Virus record (IMG/VR): IMGVR_UViG_3300046011_004811
Location: 1-20,950 of that record
Strand: one strand, 5' to 3'
Length of the DNA stretch: 20,950 bases
Source: a virus
Shown: one piece after another, positions 1 to 18,949 of the stretch
How positions within the stretch are numbered: the stretch's first letter is position 1
Layout of the letters: each line of letters opens with the position of its first letter
The notes under the pieces: generated by a model
What the model was told of the DNA's origin: nothing
Databases searched by the model: none
What the model saw: the letters and a program-made list of their open reading frames with translations, nothing else
Program-made: the position numbers and the translations under genes

Positions 1-1277
1 CCTGGGTTCATGCCGGCGCCGCCACCACCGCCGCCGCCGCCGTTTGCTCCGCCAGCACCACCCGCTGCGCCACTGGTAGAAGCCGTCACAGTTGTGCCGC
101 CTCCACCGCCACCCGCGCCACCTCGCGTGCTGTTGCCGTCTGCGCCTGCAGATCCTGCCGTGGGTGCCGCGCCGTCTGTGCCAACTGCCCCACCGCCACC
201 CGCCACATAAGACCCAGCAGCACCACCAGCACTGCCGGCAACAACGGCTGGGGTTGCGCTGTGATGTCCACCGGACCCACCTCCGCCGCCACCGAACAGC
301 GACGAGCCCCCCACGCTTGATGCAGCGGCTGCAGATGAACCACCACCACCGCCACCACCAAATTCTGCGTTTGCCGTCAGTGCCGCACCAGCAGCAGTGC
401 CCGTGACGCCTTGCCCGCCAGCAGCGTTGTTGGCCGAAGTCGGAACACCACCAGTGCCACCACTGGTTGAACCAATGCCGCCAGCACCACCACGCCCAGC
501 GCCACCACCGCCACCAGACACAGCGCCAGAAATAGCCCCACCGGCACCACCGCCGCCACCAAATGCAGTTAGATGAGTGCCGAACGTTGAACTCTGCCCG
601 ACAGCACCAGCACCACCAGCAGCGCCAGCCGCACCGGGGGCGCCCGCTGTACCACCGTTCCCGATAGTCACCGAGACAGTAGAGGCAAGATCAGACGCGG
701 CAAATTTGCCCTCTGCCATACTGCCGCCGCCGCCACCCGCTCCACCTTTGGCAACGGTTGCAGTTGCTAGTGACGCGCCAGCGCCACCACCACCGCCAGC
801 GCCCCACAACCGCACCAAAACCAGCTTGGGCGTGAAGTTGGTCGGCTTTGTCCATGTGCCAGATGCCGCAAACGTCTGGATGTCCACATCGGAAGTCACC
901 AGCGCATTGACTGGAGCCCCCGCAGCATTAAGCCGGTTCCAGCCGATCCCTTCAACGTAGATTGCAACCTCGTTGGCACCCAGCAGGAACCGCACCAACT
1001 CCGCTGCATTGGTGCCGTCCGTGTGGTAAATCTCTACGGTGTTGGTTACCGAACTGCTGTGATTGTTGATGCTGATGAACTTGACGTTGCGCACCGTGCT
1101 GGACGCAGGTGATGCAACAAAGTCGGTCGTCGTGGCAGTCGTGATGCTGGGCGTGTTCGTGCGGCCTGGCGTTACCGTGCTGCCGTTCAGGTCAACGAAC
1201 GATGCGTGAATCTCAATATCACCAGCCGCGCTGGTGATCGCGTACAGCTTGTCGGATGTGGAAGCAAGGTTAATCAC
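1..1277 (-). CDS. Glycine-rich tail fibre/adhesin protein, partial (C-terminus beyond left edge)
   Basis: This minus-strand frame stays open from a GTG at 1277 to the window edge, giving 425 complete codons, with the C-terminus missing. The GTG overlaps the TGA of the gene before it (GTGA), which fixes the start. Residues 1-140 look like beta-rich virion sequence. A WTKP motif near residue 143 and LWGAGGGGG at about 157-164 then open a glycine-rich tract that continues to the edge as runs of 4-8 Gly separated by Ala/Ser/Thr-rich spacers. This pattern matches the glycine-rich domains of phage tail fibres and distal adhesins, where polyglycine helices present host-binding loops; that parallel is established knowledge, and its use here is inference. 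It is the most distal gene seen in the late operon, a usual place for a receptor-binding protein. The opposite strand shows long proline-rich open frames that are only shadows. Confidence 0.85.
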   Translation of the reverse strand, partial: MINLASTSDKLYAITSAAGDIEIHASFVDLNGSTVTPGRTNTPSITTATTTDFVASPASSTVRNVKFISINNHSSSVTNTVEIYHTDGTNAAELVRFLLGANEVAIYVEGIGWNRLNAAGAPVNALVTSDVDIQTFAASGTWTKPTNFTPKLVLVRLWGAGGGGGAGASLATATVAKGGAGGGGGSMAEGKFAASDLASTVSVTIGNGGTAGAPGAAGAAGGAGAVGQSSTFGTHLTAFGGGGGAGGAISGAVSGGGGGAGRGGAGGIGSTSGGTGGVPTSANNAAGGQGVTGTAAGAALTANAEFGGGGGGGSSAAAASSVGGSSLFGGGGGGSGGHHSATPAVVAGSAGGAAGSYVAGGGGAVGTDGAAPTAGSAGADGNSTRGGAGGGGGGTTVTASTSGAAGGAGGANGGGGGGGGAGMNP

Positions 1278-1675
1278 AGCGCAAAGATGCCAGAGGCATT
1301 CCATGAGACAACGATGTCGCCGCCGTTGCTGGTGACTGGCAAGCCAGTTACACCGGTGTCGATGTAGGCCACTAGGCGCGAAGTACCAGCCACCCCGGTG
1401 TCAAGGTACAGAACCACCGCCTCATAGCTGACGGTTCCAGCAACAGCCGTGAACGTCACGTTGTCACCGTCAAGAACACCGCCCGTGTAAGTCTTGGTGC
1501 CGATGGTCTGAGCCGTGCCGCCAGTGCCAGACAGCGAAGACAGGAACTCATGCGCGGTGCTGTAGGTGTACGTTCCGGTGTCAACCAGAACCACCTTCAG
1601 CGTGCCTGTCAGCGATGAGTTAGAAGAAGCCTGAATGATGGCTTCCTTCCACTTTGGGTAGAGTGCGTTTGCCAT
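1274..1675 (-). CDS. Small virion/tail protein of unknown function (133 aa)
   Basis: This 133-aa protein is rich in Thr, Gly, Ser and Val, with alternating beta-type segments and no Cys or transmembrane segment. Its ATG overlaps the TAA of the preceding gene by one base (TAATG), and its TGA overlaps the GTG of the glycine-rich adhesin, so translation is probably coupled on both sides. It lies between two tail genes, so a structural or tail-accessory role is the likeliest reading. I do not recognise a named family. The N-terminus (MANALYPKWKEAIIQ) is helical and the rest beta-rich, a form also seen in tail-fibre attachment or decoration proteins, but that is only a guess. Confidence 0.8.
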   Translation of the reverse strand: MANALYPKWKEAIIQASSNSSLTGTLKVVLVDTGTYTYSTAHEFLSSLSGTGGTAQTIGTKTYTGGVLDGDNVTFTAVAGTVSYEAVVLYLDTGVAGTSRLVAYIDTGVTGLPVTSNGGDIVVSWNASGIFAL

Positions 1676-2022
1676 TAGCTGTAGCTCAGTGAAGCCCGGT
1701 TGTCCCAGACGTTATCAAAACCAGCGTTCCCATCAGCCCATGTAACAGTGACATCACCATCAATGCCGAAGTCCAACTTCTGAATTTGCCAACCAGCGGC
1801 AGAAGTCGCCGTTCCTACCTGAGCCTTACCGAGATAGGCCAGCGTCGGCGTGCTTGAGTCTTGGTCGTACCGGGTGGCGTAGTTCTGCACCTGTACCTCG
1901 TCGATCAGTTCGTTGATCTGCTGCGTCATGTCGCGCAGGTACTGGTACAGCATCACCGACAGCCTGCGGTGGTAGTCCTGCGGGTGGTCTTGCGGCAGGC
2001 TGATCTGGCCTAGCTTCTTCAT
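1675..2022 (-). CDS. Small tail protein of unknown function (115 aa)
   Basis: The product has 115 residues. About residues 15-47 (YHRRLSVMLYQYLRDMTQQI and following) are predicted helical and amphipathic, and could form an oligomerisation or docking helix. Residues 60-115 look beta-rich with several Trp and Asp. Its ATG shares four bases with the stop of the gp10-like gene (ATGA), and its stop overlaps the next start by one base. Small helical-plus-beta proteins directly after the gp10-like tail protein are common in P22-like and BPP-1-like phages, but I cannot assign a specific function. A role in attaching the adhesin is conceivable and unproven. Confidence 0.8.
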   Translation of the reverse strand: MKKLGQISLPQDHPQDYHRRLSVMLYQYLRDMTQQINELIDEVQVQNYATRYDQDSSTPTLAYLGKAQVGTATSAAGWQIQKLDFGIDGDVTVTWADGNAGFDNVWDNRASLSYS

Positions 2023-3440
2023 CGGTTGCCAGCCTTGAGGAAGTCGAAGTCAACCACCGCAGCAACCCACGATCCAACCGCGTCAACCGTCAGTCTGTGA
2101 AAACGCCCCGACTGCCGAAGGTCAAACTTTCCGTTCGCGTAGATGCCCGATCCGCCATTGACCCCACCTTCGCCCCGAGACATGCGAACCAGCCCCGAGA
2201 CAGTGGCAGACGTGGGCGCAAGCTGGTAACCCACGCGCAGCCTTGAGAGCCGGCTGACGATCTGGTCATCACCGACATCGAACAGCGTCATGGAGCTAGC
2301 CCCGCTGATGCCGTTCAGCGTCGAGAGTTGATGCGCGGAGGTAAACACCGTCATCATCCGGCCACCAGCAAGCCAATACTGCGACCCGATGCTCACATCG
2401 GGCATGTCTTCGATGTTCCCGCCGACAGTGCCAATCGTGGCCCCTGACGAGACGTAGTTCAAGGCGCATTCAATGGTCTGCGTCACCGTGCCCCACTGAC
2501 GGGTGCCCATGTGATAGACCAAAGCCTTATCGCAGACAGACGAAGCGACAGACGGGTAAAAGAACCAAACAACCGAGTTCTGCTTGTCGTGCAGCACCAC
2601 GCACTTGTAGATGAGCGCAGGGTTTACATCGTTGTAGAACCACTGCCGAATCGCGCCTTCTGCAATGCTCACCGGCCTGGTGCCGTCGAAAAGCATGATG
2701 TCGCTTCGACCGATGAAGGCATGGCCCAGCCCGCCAAGATCGGTGACGGCATCCAGCCCGACACAGCCAACATCGCCAGGAACTAGATCGAACTCCCACA
2801 CCGCTGGAGAGCCGACATAGCGCCCGAGGTAGATGCTGCGATCCTTGTAAACCGCGATCTGCTCACCGAATGCTTTGGCAGCAGTGATTGCCCCCGGTGT
2901 GGACACAAGCCGGCCAGTGGCTGACTGCGTGGACAGGGCAGGCGTCCAGTCCGTCTCATCCAGCAGGGCAGAGCAATGCCACACATCAGAGCCGGCATCG
3001 GTGTTCACCGCCATGACGAAGCCAGAGGCAACCTCAATTGCCATCGCTTCAGGCGCACCAGAGATAGCGCTAAACGTGGTGCTGGTGCTTCGCTGGATCG
3101 GCTCACCAGCAGCAGCGGCTAGCGTTGAATCACCGAACTGCGCAAAGTCCCAGCGGGTGTCAGTTGAGAGCGTGAAACCGGAAGCACGCGACACCCACGA
3201 ACCCGCGTCCAGTTCGTACAGATTCGCAGCAGTGCCGGCAAAGATTCTGCGGGTGCCGTCCAGCTTTGTAGCCACCGCAGCGTTTCGGCATTCAGCGGCG
3301 AGAACAGGCACCCCAGCGACCGAGATAGCCGTCGGCGCACCAGCGATGCCGTTTGACGCCGGGACGATGTTCTGCGCGGCCAGGATCGCGCCCGGCGTTG
3401 CATCGTCAACGTCTGGGAGGAAGCCGAGAAGGGGTGTCAT
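2019..3440 (-). CDS. P22 gp10-like tail hub / DNA-stabilisation protein
   Basis: This 473-aa protein opens with a segment (TPGAILAAQNIVPASNGI) typical of the P22 gp10 family, which plugs the portal after DNA packaging and forms the tail hub to which spikes bind. P22 gp10 is 472 aa, nearly the same length. The body consists of repeated short blades such as RRIFAGTAANLYELD (about 65-79), AYKDRS/IYLGRY and DIMLFDGTRPV, suggesting a beta-propeller. The gene starts 18 bases after the SGNH-protein stop and has only a weak ribosome-binding site; it runs into the 115-aa gene by an ATGA overlap. Position downstream of the gp4-like adaptor agrees with the role. The family assignment is by sequence pattern and length, not by a search. 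Confidence 0.72.
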   Translation of the reverse strand: MTPLLGFLPDVDDATPGAILAAQNIVPASNGIAGAPTAISVAGVPVLAAECRNAAVATKLDGTRRIFAGTAANLYELDAGSWVSRASGFTLSTDTRWDFAQFGDSTLAAAAGEPIQRSTSTTFSAISGAPEAMAIEVASGFVMAVNTDAGSDVWHCSALLDETDWTPALSTQSATGRLVSTPGAITAAKAFGEQIAVYKDRSIYLGRYVGSPAVWEFDLVPGDVGCVGLDAVTDLGGLGHAFIGRSDIMLFDGTRPVSIAEGAIRQWFYNDVNPALIYKCVVLHDKQNSVVWFFYPSVASSVCDKALVYHMGTRQWGTVTQTIECALNYVSSGATIGTVGGNIEDMPDVSIGSQYWLAGGRMMTVFTSAHQLSTLNGISGASSMTLFDVGDDQIVSRLSRLRVGYQLAPTSATVSGLVRMSRGEGGVNGGSGIYANGKFDLRQSGRFHRLTVDAVGSWVAAVVDFDFLKAGNR

Positions 3441-3458
3441 TACCGGCAGAGGATGGGA

Positions 3459-4862
3459 TCAGTAGCCCAGCGCAGTCCGCACAGCAGTCGCAATGGCGCC
3501 GTGGGCAGTCTTGGTGTAGTGCAAGCCATCGCCCGCGTCGTATGCCGGGAGAATCTGCGCGGTGTTTGCTGGATTGGCCACCACCGTATCTGCATCCACC
3601 ACCGTGATGCCACTGGCTGCCAGCGCCAGAGTGCGCACGTTCTGCGCCTGCCGGCGCGCATGCTCCGCGCCAGTGTGAGCATTCACCGGCCCGCTGGTCA
3701 GGATCACCGGCGTGACGCCCGCCGCCCGACACTGGCCGATCATGTCCAGCGTGTGCGCCCATGCCAGGTCGAACGCCGCCTGCGTGTTGCCGTCGTTTGG
3801 ACTCCACGCCTTGAAAGCGGCGAAGTCAGGCTTGGCAACCGCCAGGTAGCGCGTCAGCGTCTCGCGGCTGTCCTGCGTCTTCTGACCGGATGCCGCCCAG
3901 GTTGACCATGACGCGCCGGAATCGGCCCAATTCATTTGAACCGGCCAGCCAGTGAAGGCGCTCGCCGCCGCAGTGCTGTTGCCGTGAAACAGGGAGTCCC
4001 CGAACGCAGCGCCGGAGGCTCCGACAGCGCTGGTGTAGAAGATCGCGCCAACGCAGGGGATGCCGCCGCTGTTGTTCTCCAGGCACGAGTTGGCATCAGC
4101 CGTCGTCGTCACACCGTCGCCGGTCCAGGTGTAGGAGGCCAACTGGTGGCCGTTGTTGTTGGTGTCGGCGTTGTACGCCGCCATGGTGGCGCCGGGCGCA
4201 ATAAGCACCGTTGCGGTCACGCCGCCGCCGCCGCCGTCCACCAGCACGCGCACGCGGATCAGGCCACGGGCGCCACCGTCACTGCGCGCAGTGGGCAGCA
4301 GAGGAATCAGATCGCTCACCAGCATGCCGGGGATGATCTGGCTGCCGGGTCCAGTAGCGGCCTGCGGCACGGTGCCGCTGGTGCTGCCGTTGAAGGTGAT
4401 GCTTGTCCAGGTGATTTCGGCGCCGGTTGAGAGGATGTGCTTTGCCGGGCTCCCCACCTTTGCCTTCGGGATCGCCATTGCAGCGGCCACGTCGAAGTTT
4501 GCGAAGATCAACCGCACACCGAAGAACGAGGCAGGCGCCGGGTACTGCACATCCTGCGTCTTGAACGTGCCGGCGCCTGCCGTGATGGCGGTGGTGTAGG
4601 CGGTCGAGCCCGAGAAGAACTTGACGGCAGCGGCCCGCGCCGCAGCCGGCAGGCGGGCCATGCCGGCTGCGTAGTTCCCAGCCTTTGACACCAAGGCTCG
4701 GACTGCTGCCGGATCAAACCCGCCCTCTAGGGCCTGCGTTGTCGGGTTCCAAACGTAGTAAGCGCCCGTGTCGCGCAATTGGTAGATGACACCGAGACTG
4801 CCTTCAACACCGACACCATCCTGCAATGCAGCCAATTCGGTGGAGTTGATGATCTGAAACAT
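3459..4862 (-). CDS. Tail-associated SGNH/GDSL hydrolase (467 aa)
   Basis: The C-terminal half carries the SGNH-hydrolase signature: GDSL at residues 288-291 (nucleophile Ser290), an SPNDG block at 354-358 and DGLHYT at 445-450 supplying the Asp/His pair of the triad. Such enzymes remove acyl or acetyl groups; in phage tails they usually de-esterify surface polysaccharide. The first 250 residues are beta-rich and carry no recognised motif; they may be the virion-binding part. The ATG at 4862 overlaps the previous TGA by one base (TGATG); a longer in-frame extension to 5096 only reads through the upstream gene. Substrate cannot be told from sequence. Sitting among tail genes rather than with a lysis cassette argues for a virion function in adsorption. 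Confidence 0.85.
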   Translation of the reverse strand: MFQIINSTELAALQDGVGVEGSLGVIYQLRDTGAYYVWNPTTQALEGGFDPAAVRALVSKAGNYAAGMARLPAAARAAAVKFFSGSTAYTTAITAGAGTFKTQDVQYPAPASFFGVRLIFANFDVAAAMAIPKAKVGSPAKHILSTGAEITWTSITFNGSTSGTVPQAATGPGSQIIPGMLVSDLIPLLPTARSDGGARGLIRVRVLVDGGGGGVTATVLIAPGATMAAYNADTNNNGHQLASYTWTGDGVTTTADANSCLENNSGGIPCVGAIFYTSAVGASGAAFGDSLFHGNSTAAASAFTGWPVQMNWADSGASWSTWAASGQKTQDSRETLTRYLAVAKPDFAAFKAWSPNDGNTQAAFDLAWAHTLDMIGQCRAAGVTPVILTSGPVNAHTGAEHARRQAQNVRTLALAASGITVVDADTVVANPANTAQILPAYDAGDGLHYTKTAHGAIATAVRTALGY

Positions 4863-5176
4863 CACACCCCCTCGCCGTTGCACACCACCGTGGCGCCAGT
4901 GCCTGTGATGCTTGCGATGACCGCACGGTGCAGGCGCCAAGGGATCGCCGCGCTCGTCGTCTTCACATCCGATCCGGTGCCGCTCAGGCTCATTGCGGTG
5001 CCGATGGTTGACCAGTTGACGCCATCGTTGCTGCCTTGAATCGTCACCGTTGCAGACACAGAGCCAGTGCCCGTGATTGCGGCCTGATAGCCCCACTCAA
5101 GGCCAGGTCGGTGCTGCGCCGTCGCTGTGTCGTTCGTGGTCGTGCCAGTTGAGAAGAAGTTGACTCGATACGTCAT
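4862..5176 (-). CDS. Small beta-rich virion protein (104 aa)
   Basis: The product is a Thr/Ser/Gly/Ala-rich beta-type protein with a motif VTIQGSNDGVNWSTIG (about residues 45-60), resembling the SNDG..W pattern seen in small phage structural proteins that decorate capsids or tails. The start is either the ATG at 5176, which shares one base with the TGA of the adaptor gene, or a GTG one codon earlier at 5179 that would make a GTGA overlap; I list the ATG. It ends by overlapping the SGNH gene start. No enzyme motif is visible. Function is inferred from composition and from its place between head-tail adaptor and tail esterase. Confidence 0.78.
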   Translation of the reverse strand: MTYRVNFFSTGTTTNDTATAQHRPGLEWGYQAAITGTGSVSATVTIQGSNDGVNWSTIGTAMSLSGTGSDVKTTSAAIPWRLHRAVIASITGTGATVVCNGEGV

Positions 5177-5787
5177 CACATTGACCCGCGAAGGCCCCCG
5201 GTTTCAAGTTGCTGCGCCTCTGTCTGGTGGCGCCGATATTCCAAGGCTTCCGCTTGCGCGCACAGCCCCGCCGCTTGGCCGTCTTGCAGCACATCGGCCA
5301 ACACAATGCGCTTCGCTGCATGGCGGATAAGCGCTCCCGCTTCGTCCGTCCACACGTTCGACGCGCCTTCTGCTGGCTCGTCGATCTTTTGCAGATAGGA
5401 AATCGTCAGCGTGTATGCCGCATCAGGGATGGGATACAGCCGGATTTGTTGCGCGTACCAAGCCCATGCCCGGGGCTGCGCTTCCGTCGATGTCGTGGAC
5501 GCAACGTCTTCCATCACACGGAAAGACCATCGATCCAGCGTCACATATCGCCCGTTGACAGTCAGCCGCAGGGAGTCAATCTCTGCGATGTCGTCGGGGA
5601 TGGTTGACGTTGTGTAGAACTCTGCTCCGTTCGTCGTCGAGAACGACGAGCGGGCTTGATTGAAGCGAAAGCGCCGCGCCTGATACAGCTTGATCGCATC
5701 GCTGACGGCATAGCCGATCTGCGTGGTCAGGTCGGTGCGGTTGATCTCGTCCGCAATCCGCGCCTTCACTGCTGCAAGGGTTGCCAT
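5176..5787 (-). CDS. Head-tail adaptor, P22 gp4-like (203 aa)
   Basis: The N-terminus (MATLAAVKARIADEINR) and the following helical segment with YQARRFRFNQ match a group of podovirus head-completion proteins that sit under the portal ring, comparable to P22 gp4. In P22 that protein assembles on the portal after packaging and carries the gp10 hub. It then reads as beta-rich sequence (DSLRLTVNGRYVTLDRWSF) and a C-terminal helical stretch with TDEAGALIRHAAKRIVLADVL. At 203 aa it is longer than P22 gp4 (166 aa). The ATG directly abuts the TAA of the AT-hook gene (TAAATG). The assignment rests on pattern and gene order and could be refined by structure prediction. Confidence 0.65.
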   Translation of the reverse strand: MATLAAVKARIADEINRTDLTTQIGYAVSDAIKLYQARRFRFNQARSSFSTTNGAEFYTTSTIPDDIAEIDSLRLTVNGRYVTLDRWSFRVMEDVASTTSTEAQPRAWAWYAQQIRLYPIPDAAYTLTISYLQKIDEPAEGASNVWTDEAGALIRHAAKRIVLADVLQDGQAAGLCAQAEALEYRRHQTEAQQLETGGLRGSM

Positions 5788-5925: not shown

Positions 5926-6331
5926 CGTTGTCGGGGATGTAGGCAATGACAACTTCAGCCCGGCCAGCGGTTCCGGCCGATCCCGTCAGGGCATGCGATG
6001 CCGTGATGGTGGTGTCAGCCGCGACGGTCATTGCAACAGCTTCATCCAGCGGGACAAAGGCAATCGAAGCAACCGACAGCGAGGTGCCGTACAGATCATC
6101 ATTGGCGGTCGTGCCGATGTTGACCAGCTTGTTCGTTGCTGACGTATAGGCAACGTCAACATTGACACCCGACAGGGCCTTGAGGATCAAGGCGCCAGCA
6201 GGGATGACGCCGACAACGAACACTTCCGATTGGTTGGCAGTGGTGCCGGTTTCAACCAGCGACTTGCGCAGATAGTGAATCTGCTGCGTGTGAAACTGGC
6301 GCGCAGAGGTGCCAGCGGTTCCGGTGGTCAT
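5918..6331 (-). CDS. Putative capsid decoration/head protein (137 aa)
   Basis: This 137-aa protein follows the major capsid gene, where phages often encode capsid-stabilising or decoration proteins. It is beta-rich with many Thr, Ala and Val, with motifs such as FVVGVIPAGALILKALSGVNV (mid-protein; compare decoration-like VVGVIPAGA segments) and a closing AEVVIAYIPDNDG. A good ribosome-binding site (AAAGGAAACACC before the ATG) supports the 6331 start. It lacks Cys and membrane segments. A strong hairpin lies just upstream, after the capsid stop. Its end overlaps the AT-hook gene by eight bases. The specific function is inferred from position only. Confidence 0.8.
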   Translation of the reverse strand: MTTGTAGTSARQFHTQQIHYLRKSLVETGTTANQSEVFVVGVIPAGALILKALSGVNVDVAYTSATNKLVNIGTTANDDLYGTSLSVASIAFVPLDEAVAMTVAADTTITASHALTGSAGTAGRAEVVIAYIPDNDG

Positions 6332-6352
6332 GGTGTTTCCTTTCTGTTGGAA

Positions 6353-6372
6353 GACGGCCCCGAAGGGCCATC
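6353..6372 (-). terminator. UUCG-tetraloop hairpin after the major capsid gene
   Basis: On the minus strand GATGGCCC-TTCG-GGGCCGTC forms an eight-pair stem (one G-T pair) closed by a C(UUCG)G tetraloop, four bases after the capsid stop codon. No run of T follows, so it is more likely an mRNA-stabilising or attenuating hairpin than a full terminator. It could help keep capsid mRNA abundant relative to the genes after it. The structure is seen; the effect is inferred. Confidence 0.6.
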
Positions 6373-6376
6373 AAAA

Positions 6377-7438
6377 TCAGCCGTGGGCGATGGCGTAGGT
6401 CGGCACAACGATGGTGCCGAAGTCAGCGCTGTTGAACTGCGTCTTCTTGATGCCGAAGACCATGCCCGCCGACACACCGAGTTGGTTGCCGTAGTCGAAC
6501 ATTTCCTCAGTCCACGACATCTCACCGCCGCTGGTGTCCTTGCCGTAGGCCATCACGCCAGCTTGCGCGCCGCAGAAGATCGCCCGACGCACGGTGCTGA
6601 TAGCAGCGCCAGTGGACGAGTTCACGCCCAGCGGAACCCGGGTGGCTTCGTGCAGCACGACACCGTTGTACTCACCCAGAGCGCCGTTGTAGATCGCGTT
6701 GCCGCTTTCCTTGGCGCCGCTCAGTGCGGCCTTGGTGATGTCCAGCCACTGGCCGGTCGTGGTGCTGGTGCGCAGGTTGTAAACCTGATACGGATGCAGG
6801 AACATCACGTACTTGTCTTCACCCGAGACACGCACGGGGCGGATCATCGGGCTCAGGGTCTTGGCCTTCTCGACGCACTTGTCAATGACGGTGATGTCAA
6901 AGACGTAGGCCGAGGTTGCCGACTCATCAGCCGAGCCGTTCAGGTACACCTTGTGCGAAGCGTCAGGCGCGATGGCAACTTGGTTGCCGGTGTAACGCGT
7001 GTCGGTCTGCGCGGTGTTGCCGCCCAACTGGTTGAAGAAAGCGGTGTCCAGACGGCCCGCCCACCAGTCTTCCAGGCCGGCGCGGGCTTCCTCACGGATG
7101 CTGAAGGGCACGCGCTGTTCGCTCATCTTGCCGGCGCTGCGCACAGCGTGGCGAAGCTGGTTGATGAACACGTTGTCGCTGTAGGTGGTCAGCGCTTCTT
7201 CGTTGCCCTCAAGGGTGCCGTCTTCCAGCACGCCATCGCCGGAAAGCTGCATGCGCAGGCCGATGGTGATGCGATCACCAGCGCCCTTGCTCGTCTCGTC
7301 CTTGATCTGGATGATCGAAGACGAAGACTTGCCCATGAAGCGGCTGAAATAGGTTGCCTTCAGGGCTTCCTGAAACAGCTTCTTCGACCAGAGTTTGACT
7401 GCCAGTGCGTCATTGACGCCGTAGCTCGTAGTAGACAT
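6377..7438 (-). CDS. Major capsid protein, N4-gp56 family
   Basis: The 353-aa product matches the N4-gp56 major capsid family: an N-terminal arm (ALAVKLWSKKLFQEALKATYF, about residues 11-31), then a loop with GDRITIGLRMQLSGDG (about 74-89), a DTAFFNQL segment and a conserved FLHPYQVYNLR block. These are HK97-fold subunits that build the icosahedral shell. The ATG at 7438 has GAGG upstream at good spacing (ACGAGGTTCAACATG). It follows the scaffold gene after a 159-base leader, the only real gap in the packaging and head module, and is followed by a strong hairpin. Both features suit a gene needing separate high expression. Confidence 0.9.
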   Translation of the reverse strand: MSTTSYGVNDALAVKLWSKKLFQEALKATYFSRFMGKSSSSIIQIKDETSKGAGDRITIGLRMQLSGDGVLEDGTLEGNEEALTTYSDNVFINQLRHAVRSAGKMSEQRVPFSIREEARAGLEDWWAGRLDTAFFNQLGGNTAQTDTRYTGNQVAIAPDASHKVYLNGSADESATSAYVFDITVIDKCVEKAKTLSPMIRPVRVSGEDKYVMFLHPYQVYNLRTSTTTGQWLDITKAALSGAKESGNAIYNGALGEYNGVVLHEATRVPLGVNSSTGAAISTVRRAIFCGAQAGVMAYGKDTSGGEMSWTEEMFDYGNQLGVSAGMVFGIKKTQFNSADFGTIVVPTYAIAHG

Positions 7439-8467: not shown

Positions 8468-10455
8468 TGATAGGGCATAGAAGGCATTGGTTGCGGCATG
8501 CCATTACCGAGCGGGGCAACCTGCCCCGATAGCTGCGACAGGTTGAGTTGGGCAATCAGCCCCTCCACCATCGCTTGCAGTTGGTTAACCTGCGCCTCCA
8601 TCCGGCGCACGTTCAGTTCTTCCATGCGGATGGGCATTTCCGCCTGCGCGATCTGCCCATCCTGCTGCACTTGTTGTGCTTTGGCCTGCGCGCTCATCAT
8701 GCTGGCCTGCGCAGCCACTAGGCGCGGATCAGGCGGCGGCGGAGGCTTGGGCTGGCTCATCTGCTGCTTCCACTTCTCCACCATCGCGGCAGGCAGCGGC
8801 AGGTATTCCAGCAGTTCAGGCGCGAACTGCACGCCCATCTGCGCCAGGTTGGGAAGCATCTGCATCAGGATTGCAAAGGTGCGATCCTTGCTGTTGCTGG
8901 TGGTCGCTGCTTCGTCCACCACAACGTCATATTCAGCCGCCACCTGATCGCGCACCAGCGGCACATACCGTTCCACGCCGTCGCCTTGAACGATGCGAAC
9001 CAAGCGCCCGTCGCTCATGTAGTCGCGGATGAACATTGCCAGCGTCCGGCCCTGTTCCTTGCGATACCTGCGCAGAGCATCAAACAGCGTGGCAAGCACC
9101 GTCATGGCCGACTGCTTGCGCTGCGCCTCAAGAATGCCGGCCTGCTGACGATCAGCCATGCCCAGCATCTCAAGGTTGATGCCCGACACATCCCGCAGCG
9201 AACTGATGCTGAAAGCCATCATGTTCTCAAGCTGCGGCGGCACGTTGGGGATGGGCTTCGGCATCAACTTGCCGCCCGAGATAGCCCCATCGTTGACCGT
9301 CACAACGGAATCAGACTTCGCCCAATCGTCTTTGAACTTGGAGAGGTTGTCCGTTGCCCCGTCTTCCATCACCAAGCCGCCCTTGGCGTTGGTGTTGACG
9401 ATGTGCAGCACCTGGCTGAAGAACTTGTTTGCCCAGCGCTGCGGGTCCAGCATGGCGCGGACGATGCCGTACCACGTATTAGCGTTGCGGTCGCGCTTTG
9501 CCGTAATGGCGTTGTACGTGAAGCGGTTGCAGGGACAGCCGCCTTCCTCTAGCACAACATCACCGCAGACAAAGGCTTGCTTGTAGACCTTGCGTTGCTT
9601 GGTCACGGTGTCCAGCTTCATGCCCAGCGCGTCTAGCCGCTCTTGCAGCTTTTCGTACTGTTCATGTTCAAGCACCACAACCTGCCCGGTCGCGTCATCC
9701 AGCACTTGGTGATAGCTTTCAAGCTCCCACCACTGGTGATGGATCACCCGGTACTTGCCGGTCTTCTTGTCATAGCCGCTGGCGTCACGCTCATACAGCC
9801 ACGCCAACGTCTGATCGTGAATCTCGCCTTCGTTGTCGTCTTTGGCGCCCCAATCGACAGAAGAACCAATCTCGGCATCGGGCCACTTGGCTTCGATTTC
9901 CTCGCGGTCTAGCCATTCCTCACGCTGCTGCCACCGACGATCAGAGAGATTGCGCTTCTTTGCCGAAGCATCCCACCGCATTGACAGAGGGTCACGCCGC
10001 TCAATCAGGATCGCGCCTTCCTCAGTGTCCACGTAGTCAATGCGCGTCTCAGTCCAGCCCACGCCGCAGATGACGGCATCAAGGAATGCGTCTGATTCTT
10101 CGTCTTCCGCATCGCACTGGTCGCGCACGTAGTCCGCCGCGCCCGTGAGAATCTCATTCAGCGCAGAGTCACCAAGGTTGCGCGGGATGTACTGCACAGA
10201 CTGCCGGTTGTTGACCTCAGACCCGGCCACGGAATCGACCATTGGCGCAATGCGGTTGAACACAACCGGCGCCCGCATCATTTCTTCCAGCTTGGCCTTG
10301 TCCTGCGCGCTCCATTGATCGCCAGCAACGAACGCATAGCACTCGCGTGAAGCCTCGCGCCACCCGGCCTGGCCCTTGTCGGCCTCTTTCTTGGCAGCTT
10401 TCACCCGTTGCAGGGTGTCGCTTTCCAATGATTCGGGGGTTTCGTCTTCAGTCAT
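8464..10455 (-). CDS. Portal protein, P22-type
   Basis: The 663-aa protein matches P22-type portals, dodecameric rings at one capsid vertex that form the DNA channel and dock terminase and the tail adaptor. Seen features: an acidic N-terminus, VFNRIAPMVDSVAGSEVNNR (about 65-84), an ICGVGWTETRIDY block, SSLRDVSGINLEMLG near 420 and a long Gln/Met-rich helical C-terminus, comparable to the barrel of P22 gp1 (725 aa). The ATG at 10455 overlaps the terminase stop (ATGA); an upstream in-frame TTG is less likely. The C-terminal proline run (QPKPPPPPDPR, about residues 560-570) precedes the helical tail. Confidence 0.9.
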   Translation of the reverse strand: MTEDETPESLESDTLQRVKAAKKEADKGQAGWREASRECYAFVAGDQWSAQDKAKLEEMMRAPVVFNRIAPMVDSVAGSEVNNRQSVQYIPRNLGDSALNEILTGAADYVRDQCDAEDEESDAFLDAVICGVGWTETRIDYVDTEEGAILIERRDPLSMRWDASAKKRNLSDRRWQQREEWLDREEIEAKWPDAEIGSSVDWGAKDDNEGEIHDQTLAWLYERDASGYDKKTGKYRVIHHQWWELESYHQVLDDATGQVVVLEHEQYEKLQERLDALGMKLDTVTKQRKVYKQAFVCGDVVLEEGGCPCNRFTYNAITAKRDRNANTWYGIVRAMLDPQRWANKFFSQVLHIVNTNAKGGLVMEDGATDNLSKFKDDWAKSDSVVTVNDGAISGGKLMPKPIPNVPPQLENMMAFSISSLRDVSGINLEMLGMADRQQAGILEAQRKQSAMTVLATLFDALRRYRKEQGRTLAMFIRDYMSDGRLVRIVQGDGVERYVPLVRDQVAAEYDVVVDEAATTSNSKDRTFAILMQMLPNLAQMGVQFAPELLEYLPLPAAMVEKWKQQMSQPKPPPPPDPRLVAAQASMMSAQAKAQQVQQDGQIAQAEMPIRMEELNVRRMEAQVNQLQAMVEGLIAQLNLSQLSGQVAPLGNGMPQPMPSMPYQ

Positions 10456-12987: not shown

Positions 12988-13319
12988 TGCCTCACCTCCA
13001 CTTTGACCATGCCGCCAACCAGCGGCGCCCGCCAAATCGCAATCCCGTCGATCTGGCTGTCGTCATCCCACACCCCGGCATGCGTCAGGCTGTCCAGCAG
13101 GCTCTTGAGCAGGTTGTCCAGATCGCGGCGCCGCTTGTCGGGCATCCACGCTTCGATGTGGACAGACACGCGGGCTGATCCGTAGCGCGGCCACTTCTCG
13201 GCTTGTGCAAGCCTTGCGACGGCTTCCCGGTACTCTCTGCCGGTTTTGCTGATAAGCACCCTGCTTCCGACATGGCGCCAGTACGTGTTCACCGTGGGCG
13301 GGAATGGCAGAACCATCAT
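12984..13319 (-). CDS. rusA: RusA-family Holliday junction resolvase
   Basis: This 111-aa endonuclease would cut four-way DNA junctions made during phage recombination, clearing them before packaging. It shows the RusA pattern: LPFPPTVNTYWRH (4-16), a basic stretch PDKRRRDLDN (60-69) with Asp66 and Asp68 matching the DxD of the active site, and DDDSQIDG (85-92) supplying the further acidic residue; E. coli RusA is 120 aa with Asp70, Asp72 and Asp91. The ATG at 13319 overlaps the XF1762 stop (ATGA). An N-terminal extension to 13394 would read through that gene. Confidence 0.92.
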   Translation of the reverse strand: MMVLPFPPTVNTYWRHVGSRVLISKTGREYREAVARLAQAEKWPRYGSARVSVHIEAWMPDKRRRDLDNLLKSLLDSLTHAGVWDDDSQIDGIAIWRAPLVGGMVKVEVRQ

Positions 13320-13777
13320 CCGATCCACCTCCACTTCCCGCCGACCAAATCGTCGCCAACCGGCTGCGCGGTTCTGCCGGGTCGGTTGTGCCACATGGCC
13401 GAACTGCCGCCCGCGTCCTCCTTGTCCAGTTTGAAACCGGCAGCGCGCAAGCTGGCGCCGCCTTCATCTGGAAGCGTGTAGGTGTAGACAGGCGCGTAAC
13501 CCAATGCCCTAGCAGCACGCCTAGCGGCCCCGTAGAGCATTGAACATGCGTTCCGGGTGCCATCGGTACACAGCCGGGTGACTTCCGCAGCCTTGCCGTT
13601 GTCCAAGCGTTGCGCCACAGGGCGCCCGATGATTGCCACGCCACGCAAAACGCCATCGTTTGATGCAACGCCAACACTGAATTTATGGCCGACAACAGGG
13701 CGCGAGTGGCGGTGAAGTTTGCGCACGAACTCGTTCGCCGTCTTCAGGTCGCACGGGACAATTTGCAGTTCGCCCAT
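13316..13777 (-). CDS. XF1762-family protein, GNAT-like
   Basis: This 153-aa protein matches the XF1762 family found in Xylella and related phages. Recognisable blocks are an N-terminus LQIVPCDLKTANEFV (4-18), HRHSRPVVGHKFSVGVA (about 22-38), VAIIGRPVAQRLDNG, EVTRLCTDGTRNACSMLYGA (about 65-84) and TYTLPDEGGASLRAAGF. The fold resembles GNAT acetyltransferases, but the biochemical activity is not known to me. An ATGA overlap on each side places it firmly in the operon, between a Cys/His protein and RusA. It is probably an accessory early protein acting on host or DNA metabolism. Confidence 0.85.
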   Translation of the reverse strand: MGELQIVPCDLKTANEFVRKLHRHSRPVVGHKFSVGVASNDGVLRGVAIIGRPVAQRLDNGKAAEVTRLCTDGTRNACSMLYGAARRAARALGYAPVYTYTLPDEGGASLRAAGFKLDKEDAGGSSAMWHNRPGRTAQPVGDDLVGGKWRWIG

Positions 13778-14016
13778 CACCCGATCCACTCCCGCGCTTG
13801 CTTCGGCTCGACCGGCTGCACTGCTGCTGAGTGCGGCACATGCATGCGCCACAGTGGTGCAGTGCAGTCGGCAACGTGGGCACCAGCCGGCACAGAAAAG
13901 TCCGCGATCCACATGCCGGGCTTGTACACAGCGTCACGGCGTGCGCAGGGGTGCGGGTGGCGGCATGCGCTGGCTACGCACTTTTTGCCGTCTGACAGCC
14001 AAAGCGGGGCCTTCAT
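13777..14016 (-). CDS. Small Cys/His protein (79 aa)
   Basis: The 79-aa product has a cluster Cys13, Cys18, His20, His22 and Cys24 (KKCVASACRHPHPCARR), which could bind zinc, followed by MWIADFSVPAGAHVADC. ATGA overlaps join it to both neighbours, so the start at 14016 is well set. I do not recognise a family. Small metal-binding proteins are frequent in phage early operons and often act as host-interaction factors, but nothing here shows the role. Confidence 0.78.
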   Translation of the reverse strand: MKAPLWLSDGKKCVASACRHPHPCARRDAVYKPGMWIADFSVPAGAHVADCTAPLWRMHVPHSAAVQPVEPKQAREWIG

Positions 14017-15010: not shown

Positions 15011-15850
15011 TTAATCTCCACAGAAGCACGCAATGGCTTCTTCTTCGGCGTCGAACATGTCTCGTTGGTCTGCAGCGAACTGCTGCATCTGCAAATAGGT
15101 CGGATCGTTTGGCCGGAAATGGATGCCGCGACTGTTGGCATCGTTGACCCTGGTTTGCGCCCACGCTTCTTCTTGAACCCACCAGACAGCACGGTTTGGC
15201 TTCTCCTTGATAAGAGAAACAAGCTGGCCGGTAGGCTTCAAAAAGCACAGATCGCAGTTCCCGGCTACGTCGCCAAGGTCAAAGGCTTGATCCCGCCAAA
15301 ACGCCATGACATCGGATTTTGTAATCCCAACATCAGCCAACGGCATGCGCCGCTCACAACCCGCGTCATCGACTGGCTTTGCGCGAATCTTTGCCACCCG
15401 GCGTTGTTCGTCTGCCCGAATGCCAACCAAGTTTTCCCACTCGCTGTAGCCGTAATCACGCATCAGGTTTGCTGCGGGCAAAATCTTGAGATTGATCGTG
15501 CAGTAACGCTGCATTGCAGTCGGGAGGTATTTCTTCCGCCTGTTCAATGCTGTGAATGGCTGGCCGTGCCTTGATGCCGTTGCGTAATCAACGCAGGCCC
15601 AGCGGAACGCCACCAAATCACTGTCTGCGTACTCGACCCAATCAATGGGCACGCCCCAGCGCCGGCTGCACTCATCAACAAACAGCAGCGTGCGTTCATC
15701 TTCCCTGCCGGTGTTGGCAAAGATCACCTTTGCGTCATCAGGCAACCCGCCATTGCTTTGCAGCACGCGCCACAGCATGTAGGCGCTGGTCCTGCCGCCG
15801 CTGAAACTAATGCAGGTCGGCCCATCGATCCTGAACGGATCACGCTTCAT
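15011..15850 (-). CDS. PAPS-reductase-family PP-loop protein (279 aa)
   Basis: The 279-aa product has a PP-loop SGGRTS (17-22) as in the phosphoadenosine-phosphosulfate reductase/adenine nucleotide alpha-hydrolase superfamily, then VIFANTGRED (about 43-52) and FVDECSRRWGVPIDWVEY. Later it has NCDLCFLKP, a CxxC, and a Cys-containing tail ACFCGD, which could hold a metal or iron-sulfur site. Family members activate substrates with ATP, and related DndC proteins work in DNA phosphorothioation. A start at 15850 has AAGGGGAAG upstream and overlaps the Cys-rich gene by ATGA. Phage copies of this family are common and usually of unproved function. Confidence 0.85.
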   Translation of the reverse strand: MKRDPFRIDGPTCISFSGGRTSAYMLWRVLQSNGGLPDDAKVIFANTGREDERTLLFVDECSRRWGVPIDWVEYADSDLVAFRWACVDYATASRHGQPFTALNRRKKYLPTAMQRYCTINLKILPAANLMRDYGYSEWENLVGIRADEQRRVAKIRAKPVDDAGCERRMPLADVGITKSDVMAFWRDQAFDLGDVAGNCDLCFLKPTGQLVSLIKEKPNRAVWWVQEEAWAQTRVNDANSRGIHFRPNDPTYLQMQQFAADQRDMFDAEEEAIACFCGD

Positions 15851-16005
15851 TGCTTCCCCTTGAATGCCGGGCACCTTTGCGGCAGTTGCGCCAGCGTTGT
15901 CCCGATTTCGATTGATGCCCACGGACTCAGACCGGCGGCTTTGGCTTGCATGCACCGGCCGGCTTTGAAGTGCTGGCATTGGCGGCAGGTGTGCATGTCA
16001 GTCAT
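15847..16005 (-). CDS. 52-aa Cys-rich protein
   Basis: Between the DUF559 nuclease and the PP-loop gene a minus-strand frame encodes MTDMHTCRQCQHFKAGRCM... and ends ...CPAFKGKQ. Its cysteines (7, 10, 18 and 44) with a CxxC and neighbouring His suggest zinc or iron binding. It overlaps the upstream nuclease gene by eight bases and the downstream gene by ATGA, so it completes an unbroken chain. The frame is too short for a typical ORF threshold. Its role is unknown, but the coupling with a nuclease and a PP-loop protein is of interest. Confidence 0.78.
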   Translation of the reverse strand: MTDMHTCRQCQHFKAGRCMQAKAAGLSPWASIEIGTTLAQLPQRCPAFKGKQ

Positions 16006-16423
16006 GCTTCAGGCCATGCGCGTCGGCAATGCTTGCGATGCGCTGGTAAGCAATCCCGGCGTCATCAGTCCTGCACTCGCGCCCCGTCAGCCTGTAGACA
16101 GTCCAGCCAAGCGCCTCAATCTCGCCCTGCCGCTTTGCGTCTGCTTCCGCGTCTTGATGGAACTTGGCGCCGTCGCACTCAATGGCGACCTTTGCAACCG
16201 GGTTGCCAAAGTCCACAAAGCGGCGACCAACCGGGTACTGCGGGTACAGCACCGCGCCAACTTCGCGGATGTCTGACCACAGCCAGGCTTCAATCGGCGT
16301 CATGCGGATTCCGGCGTCGCTGTCCCACGCATAGGCATCGATGCCCCATGCAGATGCGCCAGCGGCTTGGATGGCGGCTTCGTGGCGCTCGTAATGCAAC
16401 CTGATGCGGTCCCAATCGCTCAT
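15998..16423 (-). CDS. DUF559-type PD-(D/E)XK endonuclease (141 aa)
   Basis: The C-terminal half carries the signature of DUF559/very-short-patch-repair-like nucleases: VGRRFVDFGNPVAKVAIECDG (65-85) with Asp71 and Glu82/Asp84 as likely metal ligands, then KFHQDAEADAKRQGEIEALGW and VYRLTG (109-114). Residues 1-45 form a helical cap ending MTPIEAWLW, the usual TPxExxLW lead-in. It would cleave or nick DNA, perhaps in repair, recombination or host-DNA attack; the substrate is not evident. The ATGA overlap with the P-like gene fixes the start at 16423. Confidence 0.82.
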   Translation of the reverse strand: MSDWDRIRLHYERHEAAIQAAGASAWGIDAYAWDSDAGIRMTPIEAWLWSDIREVGAVLYPQYPVGRRFVDFGNPVAKVAIECDGAKFHQDAEADAKRQGEIEALGWTVYRLTGRECRTDDAGIAYQRIASIADAHGLKHD

Positions 16424-16935: not shown

Positions 16936-17737
16936 CGATGTAGTCCTGTTGCGTTGATGGGTCCAGGGATGTGCCCTTGAACCACTTAGCCATTTCTGCG
17001 GCCTTTCGTTCACTGGCTGATGGGGTAGGCCCAGCCCGCCCCTGTTCGTGCAGCCACGCGGCCTTAAAGCCCGCCCAGCCGTTGCCCGCAGCGGCCTTGA
17101 TGGCCTCGCCCGGAGTGATGCGGGCTTTGATGGCCTCAGCCTTGATGTCAGCCCATGCAGTCGGCGTCAGCGGCAGACCCTTTGCCTTGCGGGCAACGAG
17201 CCAATCCGTCGCGTGCTGTTCCTCGACACCATCGGCAACCAGATCGGACAGAGACACAAGCACCGCAGGTGCTGCGCGCTTGCGCGTTGTCTTTGTCTCT
17301 GGTGTTGGTGTTGGTGTTGGTGTTGGTGTTGGTGTTGGTGTTGGTAGCTCAACCAACGTTGAGCACTCGTTAAACGTTCGTTCAACGTCCGCTGCACGTT
17401 CGCTTGTCTGCTTTGCTAGGCGAGCGTTCACCGATGCCTGAGCGGACGCCTTAGCCTTCGCTTGCTTGTCCTGCATCTTGGCTATCTCAGCCTCGCAGCG
17501 AAGGTGAATCCAGCCTTGCCCGTCATCGCTGGTGAAGAACTCGCGCAACACCGCTTCCACCTCTGCCACATTGCCGCGCATGCGAATCAACCGAGCCACC
17601 TCCGCTGGCTCTGCCGGAAGTGCGCATTCACGCAGGTAGTACAGGTCGAGCATCCGGCGATAGGCCAGGTCTTCCATCGGCTCTAGGTGGGCCGTGTGGG
17701 CTGCGTAGTCGCCCAGGTGGAAGGGGTAGTAATTCAC
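16910..17737 (-). CDS. DUF1376 (YdaU-type) replication-region protein
   Basis: Residues 1-110 are a DUF1376 domain: YYPFHLGDYAAHTAHL (3-18), LAYRRMLDLYYL (24-35), VARLIRMRG and IHLRCEAEIAKMQDK. These proteins sit at the replication locus of many lambda-like phages and are thought to bind origin DNA, with an initiator role inferred. A Pro-Thr linker of seven PT units (about 132-146) joins a C-terminal helical part ending DPSTQQDYIDAAPL. The start is GTG at 17737, four bases after the preceding stop, without a strong ribosome-binding site. An origin, if present, could lie within this gene as in lambda O; apart from the hexamer repeat I see no iterons. Confidence 0.82.
   Translation of the reverse strand: MNYYPFHLGDYAAHTAHLEPMEDLAYRRMLDLYYLRECALPAEPAEVARLIRMRGNVAEVEAVLREFFTSDDGQGWIHLRCEAEIAKMQDKQAKAKASAQASVNARLAKQTSERAADVERTFNECSTLVELPTPTPTPTPTPTPTPETKTTRKRAAPAVLVSLSDLVADGVEEQHATDWLVARKAKGLPLTPTAWADIKAEAIKARITPGEAIKAAAGNGWAGFKAAWLHEQGRAGPTPSASERKAAEMAKWFKGTSLDPSTQQDYIDAAPLTLR
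17301..17342. repeat. Seven tandem GGTGTT hexamers (Pro-Thr linker)
   Basis: Seven perfect copies of a six-base unit (GGTGTT on the plus strand) encode the PTPTPT linker of the DUF1376 protein. Because the unit is six bases, gain or loss of copies keeps the frame and only alters linker length; slippage is the likely origin. Confidence 0.92.
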
Positions 17738-17963: not shown

Positions 17964-18065
17964 GCTGTATGAATCCACATTCGCAATAGGACGGAAGCCC
18001 ACACGCCTGTCAGGGTATGCAAGCGACGGCACGGGGCGCACGATTGGCGCCATGTCCACTCACCC

Positions 18066-18112
18066 AAAAAGAAGGCCCACCAGCGCGGAGCGAATCACGC
18101 AGCCGGTGGGCC
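18066..18112 (-). terminator. Intrinsic terminator after the Cro-like gene (tR1-like)
   Basis: On the minus strand GGCCCACC (18112-18105) pairs with GGTGGGCC (18081-18074) across a 23-base GC-containing loop that may fold further, followed by TTCTTTTTG. It lies 80 bases after the Cro-like stop and before the replication genes, the position of lambda tR1. The 228 bases between this gene and 18192 hold no other feature I can support. Confidence 0.78.
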
Positions 18113-18191
18113 AGAAGGCCCCGGACGGCAGCGCGGGAGAAAACGCTGCGTCCAACGGATCGGCCGTCACCACGGGGGCCAGGAGAAGGGG

Positions 18192-18443
18192 TCATGCGGC
18201 GACTTTTGAGCGCTTGCCGTTGCGGTCGCGGTCTGCGTACAGGTCGCGCACAGTCATGCCCTTGGGCATCAACTTTTCCAGCCGCAGGAAGTGCATCGGT
18301 GATGCCCAACCGCGCTCCACCCACTGCTGAACCAGTTGATAGTGGAAGCCGTCGGAGATCAGCGCAGCAGTCCGCGCTGGCCCTCCGTGGTGTTCGACTA
18401 GGCGACGAATCGCGCTTTCTTTACGGGGTGGGTTCGTTTCCAT
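18192..18443 (-). CDS. Cro/YdaS-like regulator
   Basis: The product of 83 aa contains LVEHHGGPARTAALISD (about 13-29) and YQLVQQWVERGWASPMHFLRLEKL (about 32-55), the helix-turn-helix of the YdaS/Cro-like family, whose members act as phage regulators. A basic tail DRNGKRSKVAA ends it. The ATG at 18443 follows -10-like GATAAT by only a few bases, so the mRNA may be leaderless; an in-frame ATG at 18452 overlaps that -10. It faces away from the repressor gene across an operator pair, the classic Cro position. Longer reading to 18518 passes through the operator and is rejected. Confidence 0.82.
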   Translation of the reverse strand: METNPPRKESAIRRLVEHHGGPARTAALISDGFHYQLVQQWVERGWASPMHFLRLEKLMPKGMTVRDLYADRDRNGKRSKVAA

Positions 18444-18450
18444 GCCGCCC

Positions 18451-18478
18451 ATTATCCACAAGTTCTGCTTGGGAGCAA
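18451..18478 (-). promoter_or_regulatory. Putative early lytic promoter (PR-like)
   Basis: On the minus strand TTGCTC (18478-18473) and GATAAT (18456-18451) are spaced by 16 bases. GATAAT matches the consensus in five of six bases; the -35 matches weakly. Both operator dyads overlap the -35 and spacer, so repressor binding would block polymerase. Transcription would begin at about 18444, next to the ATG of the Cro-like gene. Confidence 0.6.
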
Positions 18479-18488
18479 GTTCTACTTG
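18459..18488. promoter_or_regulatory. Operator pair OR-like (two CAAGTTCTRCTTG dyads)
   Basis: CAAGTTCTGCTTG (18459-18471) and CAAGTTCTACTTG (18476-18488) are near-perfect dyads whose half-sites CAAG(T)/(A)CTTG are symmetrical; centres are 17 bp apart. They lie between the divergent Cro-like and repressor genes. The same two dyads with the same spacing recur at 19389-19418, which is strong evidence of a shared regulator. Confidence 0.88.
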
Positions 18489-18526
18489 TGTCGTCTGGCG
18501 AACATTGCCCGCGCACACTCGCAGAC

Positions 18527-18949
18527 ATGGACGAAACCATCGGCGAACGCATCAAGCGGATCGCCAAAGAGCGCGGGAAGTTGTCGGGCGCGAAGCTGGC
18601 CGAACAGTTCGGCGTCAGCTATGAAGCCTTGCGCCGATGGTCAAAGGGCATCGACACGCCAACGCCGGCCAACGCTGCGGCCATCGCTGAATACTTGGGC
18701 GTGCCGGTGTCTACGGTGATGTTCGGCGCCGCCCCGCCGCCGCGTCGTCCCGACGCAGAAGCGATAGCCGATGCCTTCGACGCGATGCCCGTAGACAGTG
18801 ACAGCGCCATTGATCGGCGCCAGTGGCTCTATGCGTCGATCATGGGGCAGATCGCAGCGCAGACCGCATCCGCGCCCAATCCTCAGCCACCACAGCCTGA
18901 CGCGCCGCCCACCGCTGCGCGTCGTCCAGCCGCAAAAACGCGGCCTTGA
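18527..18949 (+). CDS. Repressor candidate, XRE-type HTH (140 aa)
   Basis: The N-terminal 65 residues form an XRE helix-turn-helix: IGERIKRIAKERGKLSGAKL (5-24), QFGVSYEALRRWSKGIDTP (27-45) and AIAEYLGVPVSTVMFG. The rest is short, with no S24 peptidase or cleavage site, so self-cleavage on DNA damage is not evident. The last 26 residues are Pro/Ala-rich and lie in the stretch overlapping the convergent gene. The ATG at 18527 lacks a ribosome-binding site, as in leaderless CI mRNA of lambda. Position between two identical operator pairs and divergent from the Cro-like gene supports repressor function. It could alternatively be a regulator of another sort. Confidence 0.75.
   Translation: MDETIGERIKRIAKERGKLSGAKLAEQFGVSYEALRRWSKGIDTPTPANAAAIAEYLGVPVSTVMFGAAPPPRRPDAEAIADAFDAMPVDSDSAIDRRQWLYASIMGQIAAQTASAPNPQPPQPDAPPTAARRPAAKTRP

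Follow-up and report, generated by a model that had tools for sequence, protein, structure and literature searches.

Gene order at the locus

The window considered here is the whole stretch of 20,950 bases that makes up the complete virus record IMGVR_UViG_3300046011_004811 of IMG/VR, ending at position 1; within it, a gene for an SGNH/GDSL esterase lies between the genes for the head-to-tail adaptor and the tail nozzle of a phage. The structural genes are on the minus strand. Read along that strand, they begin with an Sf6-type small terminase (PF20901, E 3.4e-30), a large terminase, a P22-like portal (PF16510, E 1.3e-120), a scaffold, the major capsid protein (MCP; PF13252, E 3.1e-85; coat family Phage_capsid_3) and p137, and continue with an SU10-type adaptor, p105, the SGNH protein, the nozzle, p115, p133 and a glycine-rich protein. 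The adaptor (5176-5787, 203 amino acids, SU10 adaptor family, PF24175, E 5.7e-16) forms the upstream border of an interval that we refer to as the slot, and the nozzle, a stabilisation-type protein of 473 amino acids (2019-3440), its downstream border. Assignment of the nozzle is based on phrog_3287 (E 7.4e-51) and on a seven-row profile that matches the solved PDB nozzles 8zkk (2.8e-54) and 8zkm (1.1e-53); the Pfam scan of the window proteins gave no match for it. A first-pass annotation, made from the sequence alone, had described a P22-like hub, and these matches bear it out: the hub proteins are predicted to be P22/SU10-like. The same annotation had placed an SGNH hydrolase after the hub proteins. 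The hydrolase is there (3459-4862, minus strand, 467 amino acids), but its place is between adaptor (5787-5176) and nozzle (3440-2019). Directly 3' of the adaptor is the small open reading frame (ORF) of p105 (4862-5179, minus strand, 105 amino acids), which has weak matches (F5/8 type C, 0.012; phrog_16217, 2.2e-5) and a 58% identical homologue at the equivalent place in a related locus, L002 (the prefix L denotes the compared loci throughout). Ten window proteins were scanned against Pfam and PHROG at E up to 1; none matched a P22 gp9-type tailspike, either its head-binding domain or its beta-helix, in agreement with the earlier remark that no P22-like tailspike is visible, and none matched a gp37-type long tail fibre.

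The SGNH protein as a candidate esterase

In Pfam alone the SGNH protein yields a weak match to PF00657 (E 0.002, below cut-off). A tblastn search of 50,697 phage records matched three of them, with Gordonia phage Zany gp5 (27.5% identical) and gp33 of Iodobacter phage PhiPLPE (25.6%, present in two copies) as homologues over residues 109-465 or 111-465. SGNH hydrolases are recognized by sequence blocks I, II, III and V, each with its expected residues. In a three-row alignment of the window protein with gp33 and gp5 (26-30% identity), S290, G316, N356, D445 and H448 are invariant in all three proteins, as are the motifs around them: the G288-D289-S290 (GDS) motif with the catalytic serine of block I, G316 of block II, the S-P-N-D stretch 354-357 with the asparagine of block III, where serine replaces in the SGNH protein the usual glycine ahead of the asparagine motif, and the DxxH of block V formed by D445 and H448. 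The profile built from the three rows matches SGNH hydrolases in the PDB (9kr0, E 1.1e-11; 3p94, E 6.4e-9); at E 0.1 or less it matches 21 different sequences, some of which are not natural enzymes. Because the catalytic residues are invariant and the profile recognizes SGNH structures, the protein is predicted to be an intact-looking esterase, in which a shared anchor at residues 1-46 (4725-4862, minus strand) is followed by a catalytic unit at about residues 109-465. The SGNH profile found nothing in six prophage-host genomes (0/6), and in the phylum of one prophage host it matched 6 of 398 genomes at E <= 1e-10, aligned within profile positions 212-443. The third-position GC content of the SGNH gene (79.2%, versus 81.6% for the MCP gene) is inside the range of the other window genes and, being no outlier, is not used as evidence of transfer.

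The adaptor-nozzle interval in related phages

Once adaptor and nozzle had been located by tblastn, the interval between them was measured in 48 loci including the window; these rows are not independent; L044 and L045, for instance, are nearly the same, as are L029 and L030. In 27 loci the two genes abut, with at most 160 bases and no ORF of at least 60 amino acids between them, and in an annotated relative, Paracoccus phage KLEP18-1, the nozzle begins at the last base of the adaptor. A single locus has the two genes 314 bases apart with no ORF between them, and six hold a single ORF of 165-179 amino acids. Inserts of 1.4 to 7.4 kb occupy the interval in the other 14 (L002, L007, L010, L044, L045, L047, L049, L050, L053, L096, L110, L113, L142 and the window). 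In L002, with an MCP 93% identical to that of the window, the insert codes for a polysaccharide lyase (PF14099, 1.4e-13) together with a fibre, and in L047 (nozzle 92% identical) for another SGNH enzyme (PF13472, 3.7e-9); L007 (MCP 71%) has a tail fibre and a glycine-rich protein; and L010 (MCP 63%) has a 718-residue protein with weak pectate-lyase and tail matches. A LamG lectin domain is found in the insert of L049, a DUF7483/tail-fibre protein in that of L113 and a protein with fibre matches in that of L050. Two further labels remain leads only: 'beta-helix spike' for the L010 protein (PF12708 at 0.035, below cut-off, and no PDB match) and 'glycosidase-like' for the L053 insert, which has no match. 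The 165-179-residue ORF characterizes the subgroup L015, L016, L017, L018, L019 and L043, and the copy in L015 has no PHROG match.

The borders of the window insert can be read by comparison with other loci. L003 has the same head genes (MCP 84%, large terminase 76% identical) and, two genes past its adaptor, encodes a protein that matches the SGNH protein at 78% identity over the first 46 residues and shows no similarity past residue 46; the remainder of that protein is 35% identical over 428 residues to an 867-residue protein that precedes the nozzle in L044. GGDHP and SHGxRH motifs seen by eye in this L003/L044 domain recall NodB/CE4-like deacetylases, a label that remains a lead only, as Pfam and PDB sequence searches returned nothing. 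On the other flank, the nozzle of L044/L045 is 99% identical to that of the window, and the DNA common to them (counting alignments over 150 bases) is confined to positions 1899-3462 (minus strand), at 95.5% identity. In-register identity between the window and L044/L045 rises from about 24% to 100% at the stop codon of the SGNH gene and drops again at codon 41-42 of p115 (1675-2022, minus strand, 115 amino acids), the N-terminal 41 residues of which are as in L044 and the C-terminal part exchanged. A second family of N-terminal anchors (89-105 residues, 54-74% identical) precedes different C-termini in L044, L047 and L053. An alignment of the 48-residue anchor found three viral loci on scanning, one being the L003 contig and two matching weakly, at 47% along part of the anchor; in the 50,697 phage records the anchor had one match, at E 0.6. 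Anchors and borders of this kind would be expected if attachment enzymes were exchanged on conserved anchors.

A chimeric assembly, with an artefactual gene order around the nozzle, might likewise account for single pieces common to different backbones, such as the L044/L045 nozzle, the head genes of L002/L003 and the glycine-rich gene of L139, a phage of another kind described below. We consider this highly improbable: DNA identity of the shared pieces is 95.5% and 72.8%, short of full identity, the borders coincide with the ends of genes or domains while all frames stay open, and L003 has, on a contig of its own, a homologous anchor gene two genes past the adaptor.

The glycine-rich protein

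At the left edge of the window lies a gene for a glycine-rich, adhesin-like protein (1-1277, minus strand, open at the edge), the GTG start of which, at 1277, overlaps the stop of p133. It has 425 residues inside the window; between residues 151 and 425, 106 of 275 are glycine (38.5%), with nine runs of at least four. Together with a match to phrog_863 (1.8e-21; PF21722, at 2.1e-4, is below cut-off), this composition bears out the first-pass report of such a protein. The annotation had further suggested that the missing 3' end might carry the host-range part, which the complete homologues argue against. That of L139 (444 amino acids, 81% identical; DNA 72.8% over window positions 1-1276) and that of L140 (445 amino acids, 66% identical) both stop 19 residues past the last residue in the window, with GLGGAGGAGGAGY and a short hydrophobic end, the closing part being a brief run of glycines and a last strand. 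By this comparison the window protein would be short of only about 19 residues, and, because its homologues end there, a separate host-range domain beyond the edge is very unlikely.

With an alignment of three rows, AlphaFold2 modelled residues 1-118 of the L139 protein as an all-beta domain with fair confidence and left the glycine-rich part unmodelled (pLDDT about 25 for residues 206-436). Foldseek found no match to this domain in the PDB at E <= 0.001, and the profile of the glycine-rich alignment had no match among PDB sequences. The best VIA-align candidate, 3u6g_B (Z 6.6, root-mean-square deviation 3.1, 94 residues aligned), is within the stated noise of the tool, and a tail-tip chain of mycobacteriophage Bxb1 (Z 4.5, deviation 6.3, 90 aligned) was not used either. 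Among predicted viral proteins the N-terminal domain recurs, two of the proteins bearing names that refer to collagen repeats and one of these superimposing with a deviation of 1.4 over 125 columns; judging from the models, the domain seems to be a base of general use on which repetitive brushes are built.

The two homologues occupy different genomic settings. L139 is a long-tailed phage of another kind: it encodes a tape measure (phrog_8462, 2e-13) and has protease and MCP fused (phrog_617, 1.1e-144), and its glycine-rich gene lies between the portal and the head protease/MCP genes. It also encodes a polysaccharide deacetylase (5985-7424; PF01522, 1.3e-5, above cut-off) between terminase and portal. 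In L140 the glycine-rich gene stands between adaptor and nozzle-like genes, the nozzle being a reading of the ORF list. The arrangement in L139, with both genes beside the portal of a tape-measure phage, and the occurrence of Zany gp5 and PhiPLPE gp33 among head genes would fit a position of the esterase, the glycine-rich protein or both away from the tail tip, as head or neck fibres or decoration. We regard such a location as quite unlikely: the glycine-rich genes of L007 and L140 lie between adaptor and nozzle genes, and the place of a gene alone is not its place in the virion.

A probable spike-equivalent esterase in a proposed exchange slot

Taken together, the variable interval, the shared anchor and the sharp border of the nozzle block point to the esterase as a tailspike equivalent on a swappable anchor. 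We consider it fairly probable that the SGNH protein takes the place of a spike and acts as a polysaccharide deacylase. It would be a virion-borne polysaccharide O-deacylase, attached through its short N-terminus to the adaptor and nozzle region of the short tail. When the phage meets its host, the enzyme would strip capsule, O-antigen or exopolysaccharide of acyl groups, probably acetyl, and this deacylation would provide both specific binding and a route to the envelope. Recombination at gene and domain borders would swap the enzyme or fibre in the adaptor-nozzle slot, and the glycine-rich protein may be another binding element that moves independently, made up of a beta anchor domain with a polyglycine brush on it. 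The esterase activity is inferred here, as are virion location, docking partner, substrate and role in host range.

Several observations weigh against this interpretation. Run on the SGNH protein without an alignment, AlphaFold2 reached a mean pLDDT of 33.6, which is unusable, so that fold prediction, proposed earlier as a check for both proteins, informs us about the N-terminal domain of the glycine-rich protein and not about the hydrolase. Viral contigs scanned with the SGNH protein and with the three-row alignment contained no close relative of the whole protein. Homology does not establish a location on the tail, since both annotated homologues are encoded among head genes, PhiPLPE gp33 shortly after the MCP and Zany gp5 shortly after the portal. 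Nor is the slot exclusive to receptor-binding proteins, because L142 carries in it a 490-residue ORF (8668-10140) with no match pointing to receptor binding, perhaps a non-attachment cargo; the L053 and L003 proteins have no helpful Pfam match.

In an alternative reading, the SGNH protein would be an accessory hydrolase, inside or outside the virion, acting for example on acyl-homoserine lactones, while adsorption is left to a fibre encoded beyond the left edge. This would be in keeping with the additional fibre or spike genes (phrog_18345, phrog_4636, phrog_4900) located downstream of the ejection genes in L044, L057 and KLEP18-1, and with the annotation of the homologue PhiPLPE gp33 as a putative acylhydrolase, for which degradation of quorum signals has been speculated upon (PMC9145820). 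An anchor with an exchanged C-terminus, and a slot that holds lyases, esterases and fibres in turn, are typical of receptor-binding genes, and the backbone relatives L007 and L010, in which ejection-type genes and then lysis genes follow the nozzle, show no spike or fibre outside the slot and the nozzle-adjoining genes when the rest of their records is read by eye, without family searches. An accessory hydrolase thus appears unlikely to us; a further fibre beyond the left edge of the window is possible, though not required.

With the esterase as spike equivalent, the attachment apparatus of the window phage looks present rather than missing. The observation made from the sequence alone is partly confirmed, and its interpretation, surface-polysaccharide deacylation combined with a polyglycine-displayed tip, is supported in part: it is a fair reading of an esterase in a slot that elsewhere holds spikes, lyases or fibres, and of a glycine-rich protein of the brush kind.

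A broader generalization, which we put forward tentatively and with somewhat more doubt than belief, is that the adaptor-nozzle interval is a dedicated enzyme dock in a large group of temperate podophages. It would receive host-matched enzymes on interchangeable anchors, be it an O-deacylase, an N-deacetylase-like enzyme, a lyase, a glycosidase-like enzyme, a beta-helix spike or a polyglycine fibre. Recombination at the stop codon of the enzyme and the start of the nozzle would re-arm the phage in one step, even across unrelated capsids, and the polyglycine adhesin would be a further module, traded with long-tailed phages. If this is so, host-range enzymes could be found by their position between adaptor and nozzle even when they match no sequence family, and the kind of enzyme present would indicate which polysaccharide modification of the host is important. 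Near-identical nozzles beside different enzymes would then amount to a natural experiment.

Other features of the window

The gene p133 (1274-1675, minus strand) matches phrog_644 (E 1.6e-25), and its product is 75.6% identical to a Pam2 homologue; in several phages its relatives carry the label minor tail subunit. A general position of p133-type genes behind the portal is not claimed, as a portal probe, of which few were used, lay at most 600 bases upstream in only 5 of 80 loci. A helix-turn-helix protein (18017-18949, plus strand; HTH_3, 8e-8) is opposed by a small ORF (18192-18518, minus strand) that we read as Cro-like and for which a Pfam search gave no match; the divergent regulators suggest a temperate phage. 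MCP relatives from named genomes are 60% identical or less.

Elsewhere, a perfect hexamer repeat, TGGTGT in 7.7 copies (17300-17345), lies within a DUF1376 gene and encodes a Pro-Thr repeat, the length of which could change by whole units with preservation of the reading frame. The early region encodes a PAPS reductase-domain protein (15011-15979, minus strand; PF01507, 2.6e-6). A DUF559/MTES_1575 endonuclease-like protein is encoded at 15998-16423 (minus strand; 2.4e-11), and a weak match to the Mom DNA-modification family (13319-13912, minus strand; PF25680, 2.4e-4, below cut-off) adjoins a RusA resolvase.

Comparison with known systems

The tail machine of P22 consists of gp1, gp4, gp10 and gp26 with the gp9 tailspike. 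The window phage resembles it in having a P22-like portal, an adaptor and a nozzle in the same order, and differs in its coat family, Phage_capsid_3, and in the presence of an enzyme gene in the adaptor-nozzle interval. In temperate Klebsiella phages, SGNH domains of receptor-binding proteins are described as associated with capsule type, two of them being active esterases, and gp63.1 of coliphage G7C is cited in the same source as a deacetylase needed for infection (PMC13123978). With these systems, as the source describes them, the window phage shares an SGNH domain encoded among tail genes and, as proposed here, deacylation of a surface polysaccharide without cleavage of the chain. Compared by description, the window protein differs in its size of 467 amino acids, its 46-residue anchor and the place of its gene between adaptor and nozzle.

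To PhiPLPE gp33 and Zany gp5 the SGNH protein is related by homology over the catalytic unit and by the same catalytic residues, whereas these two are encoded near the portal or MCP in other phage types and do not share the anchor. The discussion of gp33 as a possible quorum-signal hydrolase is, according to a review, speculation by its authors (PMC9145820), and the slot position of its homologue in the window suggests a role at surface polysaccharides as an alternative.

Polyglycine adhesins are known from Salmonella phage S16, in which gp38 forms a polyglycine sandwich (PMC6851490), and polyglycine brush domains from the hubs of siphophages (PMC13243795). In keeping with what these sources describe, the window protein has glycine-rich stretches split by short variable segments, along with its phrog_863 match. 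Unlike S16 gp38, it has an N-terminal all-beta domain of 118 residues and a lower share of glycine (38.5%), and no gp37-type fibre accompanies it among the scanned window proteins. Host recognition modules common to unrelated phages have been described for Alteromonas phages (PMC10579305). A limited literature search found no earlier statement of an enzyme slot between adaptor and nozzle, which we do not claim to be unpublished. SGNH receptor-binding enzymes, polyglycine adhesins and the sharing of modules between unrelated phages are thus already known; the variant aspects of the window phage are the position of the enzyme between adaptor and nozzle, the exchange of enzyme classes on a common anchor and the combination of esterase and glycine-rich protein.

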